Virus record (IMG/VR): IMGVR_UViG_3300032083_000398
Location: 1-31,859 of that record
DNA length: 31,859 bases
Origin: a virus
Reading direction: 5' to 3' (one strand)
Shown here in pieces: positions 15,085 through 31,140 of the stretch (the stretch's first letter is position 1; every line of letters starts with the position of its first letter). Position numbers and translations under genes: made by a program. A model generated the notes under the pieces. It saw only the letters and a program-made list of their open reading frames with translations. It was not told where the DNA came from and ran no database searches.

Positions 15085-15477
15085 TCAAGTTAACAAACTG
15101 TAAAGCATGGCGGCGATAGCCAGTATTATTACCGGGATAAATAATCTGTGACGAGATATTTTTTTAGCCCAGCTTATAGGCTCGTCCCAATCCATTGGCC
15201 CAGAACCTTCACCCTTGCGGGCTTCTTCCAGAAAAGCGTCACCATAGGGCACTCTAAGCTTTTCATCTTTTATGTCATCTAGTTCTTGCACGTCATCATC
15301 AAACGCCCAAGCAATTACTTTTGCTTTGTCCCAACGGTTCACGAGCCGTGGTCCGCGGGAACTGGGGCTGGGTGTTTTTTGGATTTCCGGGAACGTGCCA
15401 TCTTTTATCTTTTTAAAGACGGTCGATTTAGAAAGTTTAGTGATTTCACATACTTCGTTTATGTCTATTAATTCCAT
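15085..15477 (-). CDS. AlpA/MerR-like helix-turn-helix protein with C-terminal membrane anchor
   Basis: A 130-aa protein. Residues 1-50 (MELIDINEVCEITKLSKSTV, FKKIKDGTFPEI) match the winged helix-turn-helix of AlpA/excisionase-type regulators: a helix, turn at LSKSTVFK and wing at GTFP. RGPRLVNRWDKAKVIAWA continues the DNA-binding unit. An acidic linker follows (about 60-105), then a hydrophobic helix at 111-128 (RLFIPVIILAIAAMLYSLL). A DNA-binding domain tied to the membrane is unusual for this family and would hold its target DNA at the membrane. Shine-Dalgarno AAGGAG precedes the ATG; its promoter is at 15508-15535. Its targets are unknown. Confidence 0.78.
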   Translation of the reverse strand: MELIDINEVCEITKLSKSTVFKKIKDGTFPEIQKTPSPSSRGPRLVNRWDKAKVIAWAFDDDVQELDDIKDEKLRVPYGDAFLEEARKGEGSGPMDWDEPISWAKKISRHRLFIPVIILAIAAMLYSLLT

Positions 15478-15535: not shown

Positions 15536-15826
15536 CTAATGTATTCCGTCACTGCCGGGGTGGTTCTCAGCGGCGCGGGTCGCGTTTATTGCAGCGTTTG
15601 TCATGCAGGACGAAAGCAGGCCCAGCGCGGTAGCCGGATCGGGGGACACGGCGATAAGGTGGGAGATAAGATGAGTAAGGGAACCGCCGATAGCGGCTCC
15701 TTTGTTTAGGCCCATTTCTTCAAACTCTTTTAGAAGTTCGTGCGTACACTCTACGGCTTGCAGAAAGTCTTCTTTATTCTGCCGCCATCCTTCTTCTAAG
15801 AGTTCTGCATCTTCTTGGGTTCCCAT
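15536..15826 (-). CDS. Helical protein, unknown
   Basis: I start at ATG 15826-15824 (MGTQEDAELLEEGWRQNKED), with AGAGGTAG upstream; an ATG 21 bases earlier also has GGGG upstream and is equally possible (103 aa). The 96-aa product is almost wholly helical: an acidic N-terminal helix, a Cys/His pair (VECTHELL) and Gly/Ala-rich helices (NKGAAIGGSLTHLISHLIAV). It overlaps the upstream 73-aa gene by about 30 bases. No family recognised. Its stop meets the -35 of the next promoter, marking the end of this small operon without a visible terminator. Confidence 0.65.
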   Translation of the reverse strand: MGTQEDAELLEEGWRQNKEDFLQAVECTHELLKEFEEMGLNKGAAIGGSLTHLISHLIAVSPDPATALGLLSSCMTNAAINATRAAENHPGSDGIH

Positions 15827-16017
15827 GTATCTACCTCTGCGTACCATTTATCCCCGCTCTTACTTTCGCACACTTGGACGTTAATCCAATCACCTTTTTG
15901 TTCCGCGAGCCACGCTGCGAGGTCTGCTCGTTTTATACTTAGGTTACATTTTATCCAATCTGGAGCAGTTTCTCTAGGTTTTTTTGCCATGAGACCGTTT
16001 ACAAACACTTTTTCCAT
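15796..16017 (-). CDS. 73-aa phage protein, unknown
   Basis: I start at ATG 16017-16015 (MEKVFVNGLMAKKPRETAPD) with AAAGGAG upstream; the longer frame has a non-ATG start inside a terminator and is unlikely. The layout is a beta strand, a conserved-looking WIKCNLSIKRADLAAWLAEQ segment and WINVQVCESKSGDKWYAEVD. This pattern recurs as a small protein in marine phage contigs as I remember them, without a known function. The product could form an OB-like or small beta barrel, but that is a guess. An intrinsic terminator lies immediately before its ribosome binding site, so expression needs read-through or attenuation control. Confidence 0.68.
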   Translation of the reverse strand: MEKVFVNGLMAKKPRETAPDWIKCNLSIKRADLAAWLAEQKGDWINVQVCESKSGDKWYAEVDTWEPKKMQNS

Positions 16018-16150: not shown

Positions 16151-16336
16151 TTAATCGCATACCTCTTCCGTATATTCTGCACTTTCTATTTGATCTGATA
16201 CAGTCAGATTACAGATGCCACAGAACCTTACGAGGTTTTTAGCGTCTTTTTTAACAATTTTAAGCTTTTGCTCGCACTTTGGGCACAGGTTTTGTATTAA
16301 TCTTTTGTGAAACTGCCCTGTCCCCTTGGTTATCAT
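16151..16336 (-). CDS. Small zinc-ribbon protein
   Basis: A 61-aa product from ATG 16336-16334 (MITKGTGQFHKRLIQNLCPK), with AAGGAAG upstream. It contains CPKC near residue 18 and CGIC near 39, spaced as a classical zinc ribbon (C-x2-C ... C-x2-C). The stretch between them is basic (KLKIVKKDAKNLVR), which suits nucleic-acid contact; the tail is acidic. Its first 77 bases overlap the end of the ribbon-helix-helix gene in another frame, so the two are co-transcribed. A transcription or RNA-binding accessory role is possible; the target is unknown. Confidence 0.7.
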   Translation of the reverse strand: MITKGTGQFHKRLIQNLCPKCEQKLKIVKKDAKNLVRFCGICNLTVSDQIESAEYTEEVCD

Positions 16337-16484
16337 CTGCGCTTCCTTTTTTAGAATCTCTGTACCAATCAAAAACAAGCCGTAACTGCCCGCCAATGGT
16401 GCGGCCTTCGGTTTTTGACAGTTCTTTTATCTCTTCATACACTTCTCGCGGTACGAGAATGCTTTTCCAACGTGTTGTATCCAT
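16260..16484 (-). CDS. Ribbon-helix-helix (Arc-like) regulator
   Basis: A 74-aa product from ATG 16484-16482 (MDTTRWKSILVPREVYEEIK), with TTGGAG upstream. WKSILVPREVYEEIKELSKT followed by GRTIGGQLRLVFDWYRD fits the ribbon-helix-helix fold: a short strand (KSILVP) and two helices separated by a Gly-containing turn. The C-terminal 25 residues are basic and polar. Such proteins bind short palindromes as dimers and often repress their own promoter; ATGCG-ctta-CGCAT (16496-16509) lies exactly between the predicted -10 and the start codon. The gene overlaps the zinc-ribbon gene. Confidence 0.75.
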   Translation of the reverse strand: MDTTRWKSILVPREVYEEIKELSKTEGRTIGGQLRLVFDWYRDSKKGSADDNQGDRAVSQKINTKPVPKVRAKA

Positions 16485-16495
16485 TTTTATCTCCA

Positions 16496-16545
16496 ATGCG
16501 CTTACGCATGTCTAGGATAATATAGGAAAATATACAAGATTGCAA
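16496..16545 (-). promoter_or_regulatory. Promoter with operator-like palindrome for the RHH gene
   Basis: Minus-strand TTGCAA (16545-16540), 17-base spacer, TATTAT (16522-16517). The palindrome ATGCGCTTACGCAT (16496-16509, arms ATGCG/CGCAT) covers the predicted start site, a position where a bound repressor would block initiation. Confidence 0.6.
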
Positions 16546-16560
16546 GAAAAGAGTGGGACA

Positions 16561-16596
16561 TAAAAAAAGACGACACTGGGTGGAGCGTCGTCTTTT
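16561..16596 (-). terminator. Intrinsic terminator of the candidate small RNA
   Basis: Ten-base-pair stem AAAAGACGAC/GTCGTCTTTT (16565-16574 with 16587-16596), 12-base loop, and a run of seven T on the minus strand. TTTT on the other side allows weaker function for plus-strand transcripts. Confidence 0.85.
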
Positions 16597-16634
16597 GTCT
16601 ACCCGTCTTGAGTTGTTCAAAACAGACTAGTAGC
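16562..16634 (-). ncRNA. Candidate small RNA between a promoter and a terminator
   Basis: A promoter at 16641-16668 points leftward and a strong terminator lies 40-70 bases downstream (stem AAAAGACGAC/GTCGTCTTTT, 16565-16574 with 16587-16596, then TTTTTTT). The interval holds no ATG-started frame. The predicted transcript is roughly 70-75 bases. Its 5' part can form a second hairpin around TTGA-acaac-TCAA with flanking GTC/GAC. It does not look like a tRNA. A regulatory or decoy RNA is inferred only from this architecture. Confidence 0.45.
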
Positions 16635-16640
16635 AAACCC

Positions 16641-16668
16641 CGTATATCAGTTAAAAACAGGCAGTCAA
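16641..16668 (-). promoter_or_regulatory. Promoter just downstream of the DNA polymerase terminator
   Basis: Minus-strand TTGACT (16668-16663), 16-base spacer, TATACG (16646-16641). The -35 lies three bases beyond the T-run of the polymerase terminator, so it restarts transcription with no gene to serve before the next terminator. Confidence 0.65.
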
Positions 16669-16670
16669 GT

Positions 16671-16693
16671 AAAAAAACCCCGCCGAAGCGGGG
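16671..16693 (-). terminator. Intrinsic terminator after DNA polymerase
   Basis: Stem CCCCGC/GCGGGG (16678-16683 with 16688-16693) with a TTCG tetraloop on the minus strand, followed by TTTTTTT. It closes the replication operon. Confidence 0.9.
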
Positions 16694-16716
16694 CAGTTAA
16701 GCGAGCAGTGTCCAAA

Positions 16717-18612
16717 CTACTGTGCTTCGCCCCAAGATGGTCCTATTTCAACATCACATTTACTAGGAACTTCCAGAGGTATAGCAGTCTCCATAATGTG
16801 AGCGATTTTCTTTGCGTCGTCAACAGTTTTTACCGACATTGCAATCTCATCATGGATTTGCACCATAGGTAGGTATCCTGCCTTATATAAATTTACCATT
16901 GCTTGCTTTGTCATGTCCGCGGCGGATGCTTGGATCAACCTGTTCATAGCTTTGTATGTGTAGGCCCTCTTTAGTTTCGTCGTGGGCCCATAAGCGTCAA
17001 CCGCCTCTTTGTAGGGCATAGCCTTGTTCATAGCAAAAGTATCTGGCTCCCAAAGGTCAAACCGTGCTTTACGGCCTGCCAGAGAACGCAACGCCCCTGC
17101 CGACGATTTCTCGTTTAGCCTGTTCATAACACCGCGGGTTAGTCCTTTAACAAACGGTACGCGGTCATGGTACTGTTTCACAAGACCCTTGGCCTCTTCT
17201 AACGAAACATCTAGTTGTTCGGACAGTTTGTTTACGCCCATGCCATACATCATGCCCAGATTAATAGTCTTGGCCTGCTTTCTGGGAATGTTAGCCATCT
17301 CTGCAACCATCGTGTGGAAGTCAGTGTCAGGGTCTTCGTTGTATGCGTCAACAAACTCTGCCGCACCTTCCAACGCAACGCCACGATTACGCCCATAAAC
17401 GTGAGCATAATGCACCAAGATGCGTGGTTCTTGTTGCGAGAAGTCAATTGCCGCCCACTGTTCGCCTTCTTCTGGTAAGAACAGGGATCGGATCATAGGA
17501 CCAAGCTCTGGGTCGCGGGCCGGGATTTGTTGTAAATTGGGGTTGGACATTGATATGCGGCCCGAAACTGTACCGCCATCGTCTGACCGGATTTGGTTTA
17601 TGTGCCCATGTATTCGGCCATCAGTGCGGCAGTGCTTCATAATTGAGTTAATGAACGTGCCGGATGTTTTGTTAAGGTTACGTGCTTGAACAACCAGCTT
17701 CGCAAGCGGGTGTTCGTGTTCGGTCAGAAACATCTTCGTAAAACTTGGTGCGCCCTTTTCTGTTTTTGGATAATTTATACCTAACTTATCAAAAGATTTA
17801 GAGAGCGATTGGGCAGCCCAGATTTCTACATCAGTTCCCGTGAGCCGTTTTATCTCTTGCATTATCTTCTTTTCGCGCTTGAGAAGTGCGTCTCGTGTGC
17901 GTTCCACCCGGTTGGTATCTACGCGAACACCACGCCACGTCATGTCAACAAGACAAGGAAGAAGGTTTAGCTCTAAGTTAGCTATCGGCCAAAGGTCTTC
18001 TTTGCTCAGTTGTGTGGACAGATAGTGCCACAGTTCCAAAGTTAACTCTGCATCTGCTTCAGCATAGGGCCCCACATACATGGCGGGCATCTTCCACATC
18101 TCTGCCTTGGGGTCGATCCCAAACTCAAGAGCCGCGGCGGTTAAGGCTTTTTCGGATTTTGTTTTGTTAAGAAGATCGTAGCATAAAGCGTTGAGGCTGT
18201 AGCTAAACCTGTTCTCATCAAGCAGGGCGGCGATAAGCATCGTATCAATGACACGTCCTTTCATCTCAAAGCCCATCGCTCGAATCCATCCCAAGTCGTA
18301 TTGTGCGTTGTGCATGACCTTATCGGCAGGGCACTCAAAGACTTTCTTGAGCCATTTGTTGACTATCTTTTCGTCTAAGTTACCCCCGCCGAAGTGGCGC
18401 GTGGGCAGATAGCAAGACCACCCGTCCACTGCTACAGCGTATCCTATGACCTCGCCATCTTTTGTTGGCCAGCCGGGCCCGTTCTTTTTTAGGTTCGGGT
18501 CCCGTGTTTCAACGTCAATTGCTATTGTTCCCGCCGCAGTAATGTCCGGGAGTTCTAGCGGTGGAACCCATTCACTTTTGGGGGCGAACATAGCCATTTG
18601 TAAATTTGCCAT
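16717..18612 (-). CDS. polA: DNA polymerase, family A, with 3'-5' exonuclease
   Basis: A 631-aa replicative polymerase of T7/Pol I type. The exonuclease domain has IAIDVETRD (DxE at 33-35), MHNAQYDLGW and YAEADAELT, so proofreading residues are intact. The polymerase domain has motif A AIDFSQQEPRIL, motif B RKQAKTINLGMMYGMG (from residue 444) and motif C QIHDEIAM (HDE at about 587-589). The residue matching E. coli Phe762 is Leu (L452, codon CTG at 17259-17257). There is no 5'-3' exonuclease domain. The start overlaps the DUF6378-like gene by 41 bases, with GAAG upstream of the ATG. A terminator follows 24 bases after the stop. Partners are the SSB-like protein, primase and helicases encoded upstream in the same operon. 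Confidence 0.95.
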   Translation of the reverse strand: MANLQMAMFAPKSEWVPPLELPDITAAGTIAIDVETRDPNLKKNGPGWPTKDGEVIGYAVAVDGWSCYLPTRHFGGGNLDEKIVNKWLKKVFECPADKVMHNAQYDLGWIRAMGFEMKGRVIDTMLIAALLDENRFSYSLNALCYDLLNKTKSEKALTAAALEFGIDPKAEMWKMPAMYVGPYAEADAELTLELWHYLSTQLSKEDLWPIANLELNLLPCLVDMTWRGVRVDTNRVERTRDALLKREKKIMQEIKRLTGTDVEIWAAQSLSKSFDKLGINYPKTEKGAPSFTKMFLTEHEHPLAKLVVQARNLNKTSGTFINSIMKHCRTDGRIHGHINQIRSDDGGTVSGRISMSNPNLQQIPARDPELGPMIRSLFLPEEGEQWAAIDFSQQEPRILVHYAHVYGRNRGVALEGAAEFVDAYNEDPDTDFHTMVAEMANIPRKQAKTINLGMMYGMGVNKLSEQLDVSLEEAKGLVKQYHDRVPFVKGLTRGVMNRLNEKSSAGALRSLAGRKARFDLWEPDTFAMNKAMPYKEAVDAYGPTTKLKRAYTYKAMNRLIQASAADMTKQAMVNLYKAGYLPMVQIHDEIAMSVKTVDDAKKIAHIMETAIPLEVPSKCDVEIGPSWGEAQ

Positions 18613-21153: not shown

Positions 21154-21300
21154 CTAAGACTTTGCTTTTTTGTATATTTGTTGGACGCGCTGTTTAGATA
21201 TTCTAAACCACTTAGCGACCGCGGTCATTGTCATACGCTCATCGTCAATCAAACGAATAATCTCAGCGTTTCGCACGGCCTTAGTGTCATCCGGACTCAT
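21154..21300 (-). CDS. 48-aa helix-turn-helix protein between primase and helicase
   Basis: A frame from ATG 21300-21298 to TAG 21156-21154. Its ATG overlaps the primase stop as TAATG and its stop is one base from the helicase ATG. The sequence MSPDDTKAVRNAEIIRLIDD continues with MTMTAVAKWFRISKQRVQQI and ends YKKAKS. The segment TAVAKWFRISKQRVQQIYKKA is a textbook helix-turn-helix, like sigma region 4 or Trp-repressor-type recognition helices (SKQRVQQI). Such a tiny single-domain DNA binder inside the replication operon could be an origin or promoter factor. Confidence 0.7.
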   Translation of the reverse strand: MSPDDTKAVRNAEIIRLIDDERMTMTAVAKWFRISKQRVQQIYKKAKS

Positions 21301-22838
21301 TAGAACGGGGCCTCCTGTTGTGAACCAAACTTCGGCGGTTCAATTTCTATGTCTACATTATCAAAAGACGGTATCTGCCATACCCGTACAGACCTTCCTT
21401 TAATCTTCAACGTTGTGCTTTGACCGTTAATATCGCGCAGTCTTTGTGCCATCTTATGTGCTTTATATTCAAAAAACTTATTCTTTTTAAGAAAGTTTTC
21501 AAAGTCTTTAAGACGAAAATATGTCTTTCCTTGTTCCTCATCAGTCCAAGGTCGGCGGAGCAAGATTTCTTCTTTGTCCTGCGCTTGTTGTAGGTGACGA
21601 CAGAACTCTTCAAGGTAGTCGTAAAACTGTCCGCTAATGCTGGCGTCTTGTGCTACTTCTATAATTGCGCTCTCGTTGTCGCGCATTTCGTTCATCAACG
21701 AACTGATCCGGCCTTCCCACTGGTTCTTAGCTACAGAGCGTGGCATAAAGTTAAGCTGCTCCATGCAAGACTTTTGAAACAAAGGTTGAGACATTAGAGC
21801 TTCAGTGTCCAACTCAAGAGGCTCCCCGTTAACGTCCATAAACCAAACGGGCGGGGTAGAGTTGTACTTACGCAGGTTTGCAATTGTAGCCCCTGCTACA
21901 GCCGCTCCTATGCCAAACTTACGGGTTCGGCAAAGTTCTTTGTTGCAGTGTGAATTTATTGGAGCGTCAGAACATTTGTAGGCGTAGTCTTTCCGCTGTA
22001 CTTGTTTGGCGACTATGTTGACCTCTGGCAGTGGTAGTGGCGGAGCAAGGTACTCCATGTTGTAGCGTAATATTTCAGATTCCCAACTATCTGGATAGGC
22101 TTTTCGTAGATAAACCCCGATGTTGAATAACCCATTATTTCTACCCCCTTCGCTAATCTTTGCTTTACAAAGTATCTGAAGACAGGGCGGAGCGTCCTTC
22201 ATAAGGTCAGCTTCACCGCCGCCTACTACTTGTAGCTTAACGATTTCTTCTGGGGTTTGAACATATCTTTCGTATAGTTCTACAAACTCTTCTAACGTGG
22301 CAGAGGTGCCGTCATCCAAAAATGCGTACCTCAAGCCGTTTTCATGGTCGTAGTATGGCAGATTGAGAAAGTTACCTACATCTCCACGATCTAGGTGTAG
22401 TTTAATCTGCTTTGGAAATATCTCGCTTTCGCCATAGCCCAGCGCGGCAGACATATTTTGTAAAGACTTCTGCATGTCTTTTGCTTCGATCCAATCTTTG
22501 GAGAACAAAAAACAATGCGCTCCGCCAGACTTTGACCGACAGACAACTAAAGGTAGTTTTAGCCGACGTATCTTTTCTATTAACAACTTGTGATCTAACG
22601 GGTACTGGTCAATGTCGATACATCCCCAGATGCACTGGTTGTCCTCATTAATTGGTATAATACCCAGACCTGTGCCGCCGCCTTTTAAATGACTTTCCCA
22701 AAGCTTCGTGGTCCGCGGGGACTTGAGGACGCCCGCCTTTCCTTTAGCCTTACCGTTAGACCCGGTGGACTCAATCTTAAAATAACCATAAGCTTCTTTG
22801 AGACCATCGAAGATGGTCATAAACTTTTTTATTGACAT
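21300..22838 (-). CDS. AEP-type primase (primase-polymerase-like)
   Basis: A 512-aa archaeo-eukaryotic primase. The catalytic core has GCIDIDQY (DxD at 75-77), VVCRSKSGGAHCFLF (SGGAH at 104-108, the nucleotide-binding His) and EIFPKQ with GNFLNLPYY near 139-162. This order resembles the AEP of TOTE-type primases. A helical PriCT-like region follows (RNNGLFNIGVYLRKAYPDSW). A cysteine cluster CSDAPINSHCNKELC near 292-306 may bind zinc. No Walker motifs, so helicase activity is supplied separately by the UvrD-like and SNF2-like genes. GGGGG precedes the ATG, just after a hairpin with a T-run that may limit expression relative to the SSB-like gene. Confidence 0.87.
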   Translation of the reverse strand: MSIKKFMTIFDGLKEAYGYFKIESTGSNGKAKGKAGVLKSPRTTKLWESHLKGGGTGLGIIPINEDNQCIWGCIDIDQYPLDHKLLIEKIRRLKLPLVVCRSKSGGAHCFLFSKDWIEAKDMQKSLQNMSAALGYGESEIFPKQIKLHLDRGDVGNFLNLPYYDHENGLRYAFLDDGTSATLEEFVELYERYVQTPEEIVKLQVVGGGEADLMKDAPPCLQILCKAKISEGGRNNGLFNIGVYLRKAYPDSWESEILRYNMEYLAPPLPLPEVNIVAKQVQRKDYAYKCSDAPINSHCNKELCRTRKFGIGAAVAGATIANLRKYNSTPPVWFMDVNGEPLELDTEALMSQPLFQKSCMEQLNFMPRSVAKNQWEGRISSLMNEMRDNESAIIEVAQDASISGQFYDYLEEFCRHLQQAQDKEEILLRRPWTDEEQGKTYFRLKDFENFLKKNKFFEYKAHKMAQRLRDINGQSTTLKIKGRSVRVWQIPSFDNVDIEIEPPKFGSQQEAPF

Positions 22839-27297: not shown

Positions 27298-30200
27298 TTA
27301 AGCCCCCAAGCTGCCAATGCCGCTCTTCAAGAGTTGCGTCGTAGAATCATTTGGAAATAAAGCTGCATACCTCGTTCTATCCACAGGACCAGAAGTCTGA
27401 ATATTTGGCCCCATTGGAGCCGCAGAAGCCTGTTGGACGGAACGAGGGGCAGTACCTCCGCCTAAGGTGGGAACAATTGGCGGTGGAATTAAAGAGCCTT
27501 GCTGATTGTTATCAGGTCGTGGGGGAACTGAGCTATCAGGGCGTAGAGGAACCACTGGGTACTCTTGCTCTGGAACAGGTGTTTCAACCTCTTCTGTAAG
27601 TGCTTTATCTGCTGCGATAATACCTAGAGGAATACGTCTTCCAACTTGACGAGCCAATGGTTTAACTATTTTCTCTAGTTTAGACATAGCAGCGTCTTGT
27701 GCTTCCTTTGTAATTTTATCATTCATTAATCCCGCAAGAGCATTAGGGTTTGAAAACAACTCTGTCATAATTTTTATACGTTGAGACTCTGGTCCTCTTA
27801 GAAGAAACCGTTGAACTACTTCAGAGCCTGTTTGTTCCGCAATCAAACCACCTCCCATCTGTGGAAGACCTAACAAACTTTTCATTTTGTTTTGAACTGC
27901 TCCACCTGCGGTAGCACCTAAGATGCGAACATAAAACAATTTAGCTAAACTTGGTTTTTTAAACAGAACATTTTCAAAATCACCTGTAACAAAAGCTTCT
28001 TCTACGCCGCGCATAGTTTTAATTGCAGCTTGAACTCGGCCCATTTCTGTTAAACCATCTTCTCCAACTGTTTCATCAACCAACCCTTTTTTTATTAAAA
28101 AGTCTTCCATTGAAAATTTTACATTTGGGCTTACACCGGGCAACTGACCAAATAATTCTTGTTGAAGCACGTCGCCGTTAGGAAGAGTGCCATTTCGATT
28201 AGCTTTTAATAAAGCTCTGTTAAATATAGCACTTTTTAAACCAGACATGGCTTGTTCTTTGGTATATTCTAAATCTTTATAATTTGTTTCATCTACCATG
28301 CGGTATAAAGATTCCAGAGCCCTAGTTGGGTATTCTGAATCTAAAGCTTTAGATACTGCTTTGGCAGGGTCTTCAAATTGCAAAACAGTTTGAAAGGCTT
28401 TTGTGTCATACAAAGCGTTTAATTGTTCATCGTCAAAGTTTAATCTCTTTGCTTGGCTAGGGTTTAACCTGTTTGCTATGTTTCCAAGAGTATTGTCAAA
28501 AGCGTTTTGAGCCGCTTCCACCGAGATTAGTTCTTCTTCTAAATCTGGAATTAATGCATACAATTCTTTTGTACCGGGTTTTTCCCGAAAGTTTTTTAGT
28601 TTCGAAGCATTTACTACAAATGTTTGTATTGATTCCGCAGGGTTTGCCGGGTTTGGTATTGTTTTTGGCTCTATTATTTGAGACAAACTATCTCGCAATG
28701 CTGCGTTAATAATTTCGTTAGTATCCATTACTCCAACAGCTTCTTCACTAAACCCTGCCTCATCAACCAAAAAACGACCTGCTGCTTTAATTTGATCTAT
28801 TCGACGAGAGGTTGCTAAATTACCTCCTTTAAACATTTCATCTAAAAGTTGTTGAGGTTCTAAGATTAAACCTCTTTGTCGATCATACATTTGCATATCG
28901 TTTAAGAAACTTCTGCGAAACACGTTGTTTCTAGCAAAAGTGTAAGCACGGGCAGTATTATAGGCTTGACTTGCACCATTTTTTTGGCCTGTTAAATCTC
29001 TAAGTAAGGCATCATTTACTTGATCCAACTGTCTAGCGGTTGTAAGGGCACCCCCTCTTCTCAAATCTGCGGCTTTTTCTAACAATCCAGAACGCATTTC
29101 AAAAAACTTTTGAGCAGAAGCAGGGTTACGACCTGTTCCGTTTTGGAAATAATCTACCATTTCATCAATATCGTCAGCGTATCCGCCCAAAGCACTTCTT
29201 AATTTTGAATTAGCGCCTTTTGTTGCAAATTTTAACCCACCTCTACTAGAGGGTCTATCAAGAAGCTGTAAAACATTAGGTTGATTTATTTGTGCCCCGT
29301 TTTTTGCATAAAACTCTGTTAAGGGGTAACTCTTTACTTCATTCCAAAGTTTTGTTTCCCGATCTTTACTTCTAGCAACTTGATTAGTTAAAATTTTGTA
29401 CAAACCTTCAGAAAGCTTCCCCCGTTCTGACGGAACTTTAACACCTCGCTCATCGACAATTTCTCTTCCAAGAACAGTTTTGCCCGCGTCCATCAACCGA
29501 GTTACACTTGTATCTATATTATCAATAATATTTTGTTCAAATAGACCCTGTTGCATTCTTGCCGCTAAAGTAAGGGCAGCCGGATCACCCGTAGAAGCTA
29601 ACGTCCGGATCATATTTACTGCACCTATTTGCATTTCTTCACGTCCACGACCCGTAGCCGCTTCTAAATCTTTACTTGATCTTGATAATTCTCTTTCAAT
29701 TGTTTCCACCGTTGGAGAAAAGTTAGTTCCTGCGGCCCTGTCTGCGTCTTTTGCTGCTTGTGAAAAAGTTAATGTTACAGGCTTACCGTCAGCGTCTAGA
29801 CTAACCTCTTGTAATTTTTCAAAAAACAAAGCAAATTTTTCGTCTGGAGTTAGAACTTTTCCATCTACGACGGATTGTTCTATGTTTGCATCAGAAAGTT
29901 TAAGAGCAGTTTGAATACGTTTAACTGAATCATTTGTTACTCTTCCTGATAAGAGTCCTTTAGTGTTTTCTTTATTGCCCCACCAACGTCTTGCTGCATT
30001 AAAGGCGTCTGGAGCAGCACCTACAGCGAGTTGAACCGGAGCGGGAACAATAAAAGACCCCGCCAATTCGTAAATAAACCTAGATTTTTCATCATAAGCG
30101 TTAGTGTCTTGAGATAAATATGCGCCTCCCGCTGCTCCCAAACCAGAGGCTGTTTCAATGCCAAGGTATGTTTTAGGATAATCTCTTGCGGCTTTCATAG

Positions 30201-31140
30201 ACTTGCTTATACCTGTTTCTATTCCACCTAAAATTCTGTCCGCCACGGGACCTTTTCTAGGATCAAAAACAAACCCAGCAGGATTAAACCTAGCTATTCC
30301 AATATCCACTCCCATTGACCCGCCAAACATGGGACCTTTTTGAGCAGCAATTCTTGCGTCATTTGCCGCTTTAAAAGCTTTTTCTGAAAGCCCTGAATTT
30401 TTAGCTGTTATTTCAAAAGCCTCGTCTGCAACTTGAGCAAATTTACCGCTGGATACATTGCCAAAATTACCTAAAAACTCTAACGCTCCTGTTGTATTTT
30501 TTGGAGCAGCTTTCCAAGGCTGTGTTATTAAAGATGCTGCCATTATAGCAGTTTCTCCAAGGTTAGTTGCAGGTTGCAAGGAGGGAACTACTGGAGCAGC
30601 TTCTCCTAAAGCAATATCTTCAACTTTTCCAAAACTTAAAGCTCCTGCTATAGTTCCTGCAACCGTAGGAATAGCAATAACAATACCCTTTGCAAGTAAA
30701 CCCGGTATTCCAGCAGGGGGTATAAAACTTTGAGCATACATGCCCAAAGCAAGGCCCTTACTAAACCCAAACCCTCCTCCAACAGCTTCTGGAACAGCCC
30801 TTGCGGCACTATAAGTTCCAGCTTTTAGACCAGAAAAACTTCCTTTTTCAGGGTCATATTTTCCAAAATCCTCTACGTTGGTAAAAAGGGTTAAAATTTC
30901 TTCTAATTGTATGTTTCTCTCATCTTGAGCTACGTCTCTATAACGATCCAGATTGTTTAAAAGAGGGTGAGAACCGTCTCTAAGAGTTTCTATTGTTAAA
31001 GGAACACCACCTAAAGCCTCTTCATTTAATTCATCGTTTGCAATTGAAAGAACACCTTTTACGGTGTTTTCTAAACCTTGTGTTTCCATAAGGTTTTCAA
31101 ACTCTGCCACATCAAGATTAATAAGGGAGTTGTCTGCCAT
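27298..31140 (-). CDS. 1280-aa probable internal virion (ejection) protein
   Basis: The largest gene of the window. Residues about 105-175 and 195-205 contain Gly/Ala-rich hydrophobic segments (FGFSKGLALGMYAQSFIPPA, IVIAIPTVAGTIAGALSF), and further ones lie near 325-345 and 365-385. The rest (about 400-1150) is long, charged and helical, with DGKPVTLTFSQAAKDADRAA and repeated Arg/Asp/Leu helices. The end is Pro-rich and disordered (VPEQEYPVVPLRPDSSVPPR). Membrane-active segments plus a very long helical body fit internal proteins that podoviruses inject to form a DNA conduit. No transglycosylase motif was recognised, so this is an inference. The ATG overlaps the upstream stop as TAATG. Confidence 0.78.
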   Translation of the reverse strand: MADNSLINLDVAEFENLMETQGLENTVKGVLSIANDELNEEALGGVPLTIETLRDGSHPLLNNLDRYRDVAQDERNIQLEEILTLFTNVEDFGKYDPEKGSFSGLKAGTYSAARAVPEAVGGGFGFSKGLALGMYAQSFIPPAGIPGLLAKGIVIAIPTVAGTIAGALSFGKVEDIALGEAAPVVPSLQPATNLGETAIMAASLITQPWKAAPKNTTGALEFLGNFGNVSSGKFAQVADEAFEITAKNSGLSEKAFKAANDARIAAQKGPMFGGSMGVDIGIARFNPAGFVFDPRKGPVADRILGGIETGISKSMKAARDYPKTYLGIETASGLGAAGGAYLSQDTNAYDEKSRFIYELAGSFIVPAPVQLAVGAAPDAFNAARRWWGNKENTKGLLSGRVTNDSVKRIQTALKLSDANIEQSVVDGKVLTPDEKFALFFEKLQEVSLDADGKPVTLTFSQAAKDADRAAGTNFSPTVETIERELSRSSKDLEAATGRGREEMQIGAVNMIRTLASTGDPAALTLAARMQQGLFEQNIIDNIDTSVTRLMDAGKTVLGREIVDERGVKVPSERGKLSEGLYKILTNQVARSKDRETKLWNEVKSYPLTEFYAKNGAQINQPNVLQLLDRPSSRGGLKFATKGANSKLRSALGGYADDIDEMVDYFQNGTGRNPASAQKFFEMRSGLLEKAADLRRGGALTTARQLDQVNDALLRDLTGQKNGASQAYNTARAYTFARNNVFRRSFLNDMQMYDRQRGLILEPQQLLDEMFKGGNLATSRRIDQIKAAGRFLVDEAGFSEEAVGVMDTNEIINAALRDSLSQIIEPKTIPNPANPAESIQTFVVNASKLKNFREKPGTKELYALIPDLEEELISVEAAQNAFDNTLGNIANRLNPSQAKRLNFDDEQLNALYDTKAFQTVLQFEDPAKAVSKALDSEYPTRALESLYRMVDETNYKDLEYTKEQAMSGLKSAIFNRALLKANRNGTLPNGDVLQQELFGQLPGVSPNVKFSMEDFLIKKGLVDETVGEDGLTEMGRVQAAIKTMRGVEEAFVTGDFENVLFKKPSLAKLFYVRILGATAGGAVQNKMKSLLGLPQMGGGLIAEQTGSEVVQRFLLRGPESQRIKIMTELFSNPNALAGLMNDKITKEAQDAAMSKLEKIVKPLARQVGRRIPLGIIAADKALTEEVETPVPEQEYPVVPLRPDSSVPPRPDNNQQGSLIPPPIVPTLGGGTAPRSVQQASAAPMGPNIQTSGPVDRTRYAALFPNDSTTQLLKSGIGSLGA

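Follow-up and report, generated by a model that had tools for sequence, protein, structure and literature searches.

The locus and its flanking genes

The DNA that was analysed is a fragment of a marine phage, of 31,859 nucleotides with about 45% GC, here called the window over its full length. Upstream of the unit under study (16562-16668) lies a gene for DNA polymerase A (16717..18612, minus strand; PHROG 17, E 1.5e-123), whose product shows 47-57% identity to the polymerases of its closest named relatives, DSL-LC04, 023Pt_psg01, HTVC023P and HTVC027P. The polymerase gene is followed by the terminator of its operon, i.e., a hairpin (GCCCCGCTTCGGCGGGGT) with a T run at 16671..16694 (minus strand), and a hairpin of this type is the sole polymerase terminator in many relatives. 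Immediately 3' of the unit lies TTGCAA-17-TATTAT (16511..16545, minus strand), the promoter of the next operon, which precedes a gene for a protein of 74 amino acids (16260..16484, minus strand; MDTTRWKSILVPREVYEEIKELSK...). This protein appears ribbon-helix-helix-like by eye and gave no match in the profile search. The unit separates the replication operon from the operon that follows.

The replication module of the window also encodes a protein with an AEP-TOTE primase domain (21300-22838, minus strand; PF22548, E 6e-12). Further upstream, a protein of 1280 amino acids (27298-31140, minus strand) has no Pfam match at E 0.001.

Promoter, terminator and predicted transcript

An earlier note on this DNA, made from the sequence alone, had proposed a promoter TTGACT-16-TATACG directly after the polymerase terminator as the start of a candidate small RNA gene, without assigning a strand. 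Its coordinates are correct and the unit is encoded on the minus strand. The promoter (16642..16668 with the -10 element read as TATAC, the final G being 16641) is composed of the -35 element TTGACT at 16668-16663, a spacer of 16 nt and the -10 element TATACG at 16646-16641. TATACG is a weak hexamer, and the promoter was absent from a hexamer scan because TATACG lacks the T at position 6. Directly 5' of it, at 16649-16647, the earlier note had overlooked an extended -10 element, TGa. The combination of TTGAC with an extended -10 TATA occurs at one site in the window versus 0.02 sites expected from first-order Markov shuffles.

The predicted transcription start near 16634 opens a body of 38 nt (16597..16634, minus strand), which is structured according to its predicted fold and forms the hairpin CUGUUUUGA-ACAAC-UCAAGACGG. 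It is followed by an intrinsic terminator (16562..16596, minus strand) with a stem-loop at 16596-16565, a loop of six nucleotides (CCACCC) and a run of seven T reaching to 16562. The seven T had been described before, together with a stem of 10 bp; the stem is in fact longer and comprises 13 pairs including an A-U foot. The predicted RNA, running from 16634 to 16562, has a length of about 73 nt and no open frame, in agreement with the 70-75 bases expected earlier. The unit hence has its own promoter and an intrinsic terminator around a non-coding stretch.

Distribution among related phages

A search with the polymerase yielded 80 loci, and pattern scans for the promoter and the terminator yielded 15 IMG/VR contigs that carry the unit; a DNA search among named phages gave no match. 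All 15 contigs belong to one clade and have the unit at the same junction after the polymerase gene. Conservation of promoter and stem in relatives, which had been named as a check, is seen in these contigs, while most relatives do not contain the unit. There it is absent as a whole block, and the junction measures 68-143 bp compared to 235-244 bp when the unit is present. As in most relatives the polymerase terminator is directly followed by the promoter block of the next operon, the unit is an insertion between genes that are adjacent in relatives.

The same junction harbors inserted genes in other relatives and is therefore a hot spot for accessory material. An opposite-strand gene is inserted between the polymerase gene and the next gene in L053, L055, L024, L028, L071 and L043, and apparent truncated remnants of it are present in L052 and L044.

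In one relative (L095:590-670) the hairpin that terminates the unit (GGCGGCACTCCACCCAGTGTCGTC; GGCGGC variant) acts as the polymerase terminator and stands directly before the next promoter, so that the unit probably originated between two alternative polymerase terminators. Both this use of the second hairpin as an ordinary polymerase terminator and the general use of the junction as an insertion site would also suit a relic that is not a gene, i.e., two tandem terminators with a chance promoter-like sequence and a junk body that recombines in a non-coding hot spot.

Exchange of the RNA body

Except for a single variable base (R) in the spacer, the promoter 27-mer is the same in all 15 contigs, and the terminator is identical in 13 of them; the remaining two, L089 and L092, have an altered 5' arm with three changes that keep all 13 pairs. 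Between these constant ends three unrelated types of body were found, with lengths from 38 to about 55 nt. Type A is present as A1 in the window, L003, L088 and L090, as A2 in L005, L006, L083, L086 and L093, and as A3 in L091 and L094. Type B comprises B1 (L084, L085, L087) and B2 (L092), and type C is represented by L089. Alignments of A with B, A with C and B with C, which leave out the GGGGTTT shared just upstream of the transcription start, are no better than those of shuffles, whereas A1-A3 are clearly homologous and so are B1 and B2, as judged from strong alignments within each type. Since independent metagenomes contain the same types (A1 in three contigs and the window, A2 in five, A3 in two, B1 in three), they are not single assembly chimeras.

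The comparison of types also bears on coding capacity. Type A RNAs do not contain any start codon. In type B an ATG is located five bases into the RNA, without a ribosome-binding site; its frame passes through the terminator and the changes between B1 and B2 are non-synonymous in it. Protein coding was rejected because the frame is not consistent from type to type, which upholds the earlier view that no coding frame fits.

Unrelated bodies occur in almost identical phages. L091 (A3) and L092 (B2) show about 5 differences in about 2.2 kb of flank and yet carry unrelated bodies, and the same holds for L005 (A2) and L089 (C) with about 23 flank differences. The borders of the exchange are the -10/+1 region on one side and the terminator hairpin on the other. 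Moreover, body and flank phylogeny are incongruent: the bodies of A2 and A3 are 90.6% identical and those of A1 and A3 86.8%, but flank similarity is about 98% between A1 and A3 and about 85% between A2 and A3. This incongruence and the swaps between near-identical phages suggest that recombination exchanges the body faster than the flanks mutate, and an exchange of the body through recombination between phages is, judged from these sequence comparisons, highly probable. The body swapping could not be seen from the single sequence on which the earlier note was based. The earlier note had counted an unconserved interval between conserved flanks as evidence against a small RNA. Such a pattern was found for the 38-nt body and not for promoter and terminator, and since whole bodies give way to different structured ones while the signals around them are conserved, it favors an RNA gene rather than disfavoring it.

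A second exchange site was observed in the window around the start (15477) of an excisionase/HTH-like gene (15085-15477, minus strand), which has a conserved TTGACT-16-TATACT promoter and shows block variation among near-identical relatives. In L091 and L092 its product differs at the N-terminus and has an insertion there, and in L089 an unrelated sequence follows the same leader (GGAGAACGACATG).

Conservation of the signals and predicted RNA structure

Comparing the window with L005, promoter and terminator differ at 1/62 sites, versus 184/632 third codon positions (29%) of the polymerase gene (Fisher p 4e-8). The junction as a whole is well conserved between the sublineages (polymerase terminator 55/60, next promoter 55/58), so that a shared recombined tract may explain part of the conservation of promoter and terminator.

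The A1 body has a predicted folding energy of -11.4 kcal/mol with a z-score of -2.6, and the z-scores of the other bodies are -1.9 (A2), -1.3 (A3), -3.3 (B1), -2.1 (B2) and -3.3 (C). The fold beats the shuffles on average for every body, most clearly for B and C and modestly for A3. B1 and B2 differ at four positions, all of them unpaired in the predicted fold, and within type A the same holds for 5/8 of the differences; A2 disrupts one pair of the A1 hairpin. Together with the preserved pairing in the terminator variants this suggests a constrained RNA structure, as seen on few sequences.

A relic would hardly be expected to keep a promoter constant but for one base despite 29% divergence at polymerase third positions, to exchange its body within borders at the -10/+1 region and in the terminator hairpin, and to have bodies that fold better than shuffles, with pairing respected by the within-type variation of B and by that of the terminator. 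It is therefore regarded as unlikely. The conserved promoter and terminator, the folding body and the absence as a block in relatives support the earlier proposal of a small RNA gene, and the unit very probably is a real one.

Another explanation concerns a function in cis, in which the RNA would be a leader controlling the downstream small gene, either as an aptamer or by put-like antitermination, and the body types would represent different sensors or read-through elements. The unit is located directly upstream of this gene and shares its direction, the two being separated by a terminator, and in A1 a UUUUG can weakly pair with CAAAA beside the terminator, as noticed by eye. However, this alternative pairing is lost in A2, B and C, and the terminator is of equal strength with every body. 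Moreover, a separate conserved promoter for the next gene follows the terminator, irrespective of whether a relative carries the unit, which makes a leader role improbable to a considerable degree. No co-variation of the body type with the downstream small gene was seen.

Searches for homologues, targets and host

A search of the whole window against Rfam at the gathering score gave no match for the unit, and at permissive thresholds no credible match was obtained for any of the three body types, the best sub-threshold match being STnc240 with 24.4 bits versus the required 55. None of the CRISPR families in Rfam matched the RNA strand up to E 10, so no body resembled the repeats of the Racr RNA anti-CRISPRs in this search. 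The ToxI family in Rfam gave no match either, and the locus contains a single unit with neither tandem repeats nor a toxin gene nearby. The type A body had no match in 84,980 genomes, and all bodies were without match, at up to 3 mismatches, in 398 genomes from the phylum to which a Rhodobacteraceae MAG belongs. As neither Rfam nor the bacterial genomes contained a body match, no mimicked host RNA was found. In the viral collection the bodies A, B and C were found at no locus other than this one. With respect to the host, genome contigs provided two distant phage contigs only, binned in Verrucomicrobiales and Rhodobacteraceae MAGs.

The RNA might alternatively act on the phage itself. P4 CI RNA, P22 sar and plasmid copy-control RNAs are examples of antisense or immunity RNAs, and a size of about 70 nt, strong hairpins, the loop-centered variation within type A and the swapping of specificity fit such systems. 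In this case the body would pair with a transcript of its own or a related phage, and the types would constitute incompatibility or immunity groups. However, on both strands of the 31.9-kb window, which is part of the genome, the complementarity of the bodies does not exceed the range of duplexes formed by shuffled bodies, and none of the genes examined in this part of the genome stood out as an integrase, rendering an antisense or immunity function of this kind rather improbable. A complementarity of 12 nt between B1 and the gene at 15536-15847 was discarded, being at chance level (E 1.8).

Proposed mode of action

Sequence comparison shows a constant frame of promoter and terminator in which structured bodies can be interchanged. 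Host RNA polymerase would start at the extended -10 promoter, and an RNA of about 73 nt with a structured body at its 5' end would be made before transcription stops at the hairpin and the seven U. Recombination through the constant ends very probably swaps structured bodies between otherwise near-identical phages, and the RNA body might act in trans on a host component that varies between strains, with different bodies for different hosts or defenses. In its likeliest forms it would block an RNA-using defense, serving as a decoy or mimic, or regulate host mRNAs. The body swap in almost identical viruses suggests an arms race with the host in which the RNA is exchanged.

The explanation as a whole, a moron-like small-RNA gene with a recombination-exchanged body that acts in trans on the host, is given about an even chance. 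That the RNA is host-directed and trans-acting, considered on its own, is plausible although slightly less than evenly likely, and a specific role as counter-defense decoy is doubtful. It is equally a tentative idea that the locus represents a hypervariable RNA locus, in which promoter and terminator form a docking frame for RNA cassettes, each of them defeating a different RNA-using defense or host strain. If true, it would be the RNA counterpart of the swappable islands of anti-defense proteins.

Replacement of the body while the signals and the genome remain near-identical points to a strong and changing selection on the RNA. To our knowledge, hardly any small RNAs are known from lytic marine phages, as annotation is directed at proteins. 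Comparing almost identical phages for exchanged segments that lie between a promoter and a terminator is a practical way of searching, which could expose RNA-based counter-defense genes.

Comparison with known systems

Phage morons are accessory genes that each bring a promoter and a terminator along. Similar to morons, the unit has an autonomous promoter and terminator, is positioned between two phage genes and is absent in relatives; in contrast to morons its predicted product is an RNA and not a protein, and the exchange affects the body but neither of the two signals. With P4 CI RNA and P22 sar it shares the character of a structured RNA of about 70 nt with the specificity residing within the RNA, whereas a partner sequence of the unit was not found in the window.

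For the possible action, the nearest models are the RNA anti-CRISPRs (PMC10651486) and the pseudo-ToxI of phage PhiTE (PMC3475682), although our limited searches of Rfam and of bacterial genomes do not support membership in either group. The Racr RNA anti-CRISPRs are solitary repeat units, and candidates differ between phages by the type of host (PMC10651486). Like Racr, the unit is a small non-coding RNA gene in intergenic phage DNA, located just downstream of a promoter and without cas genes (PMC10651486); unlike Racr, no body was recognized as a CRISPR repeat in Rfam and no host array was found. The pseudo-ToxI of PhiTE likewise is a structured phage non-coding RNA that changes by recombination or expansion between invariant borders, with a unit of about 36 nt (PMC3475682), in contrast to the unit described here, which has no tandem repeat, Rfam ToxI match or nearby toxin.
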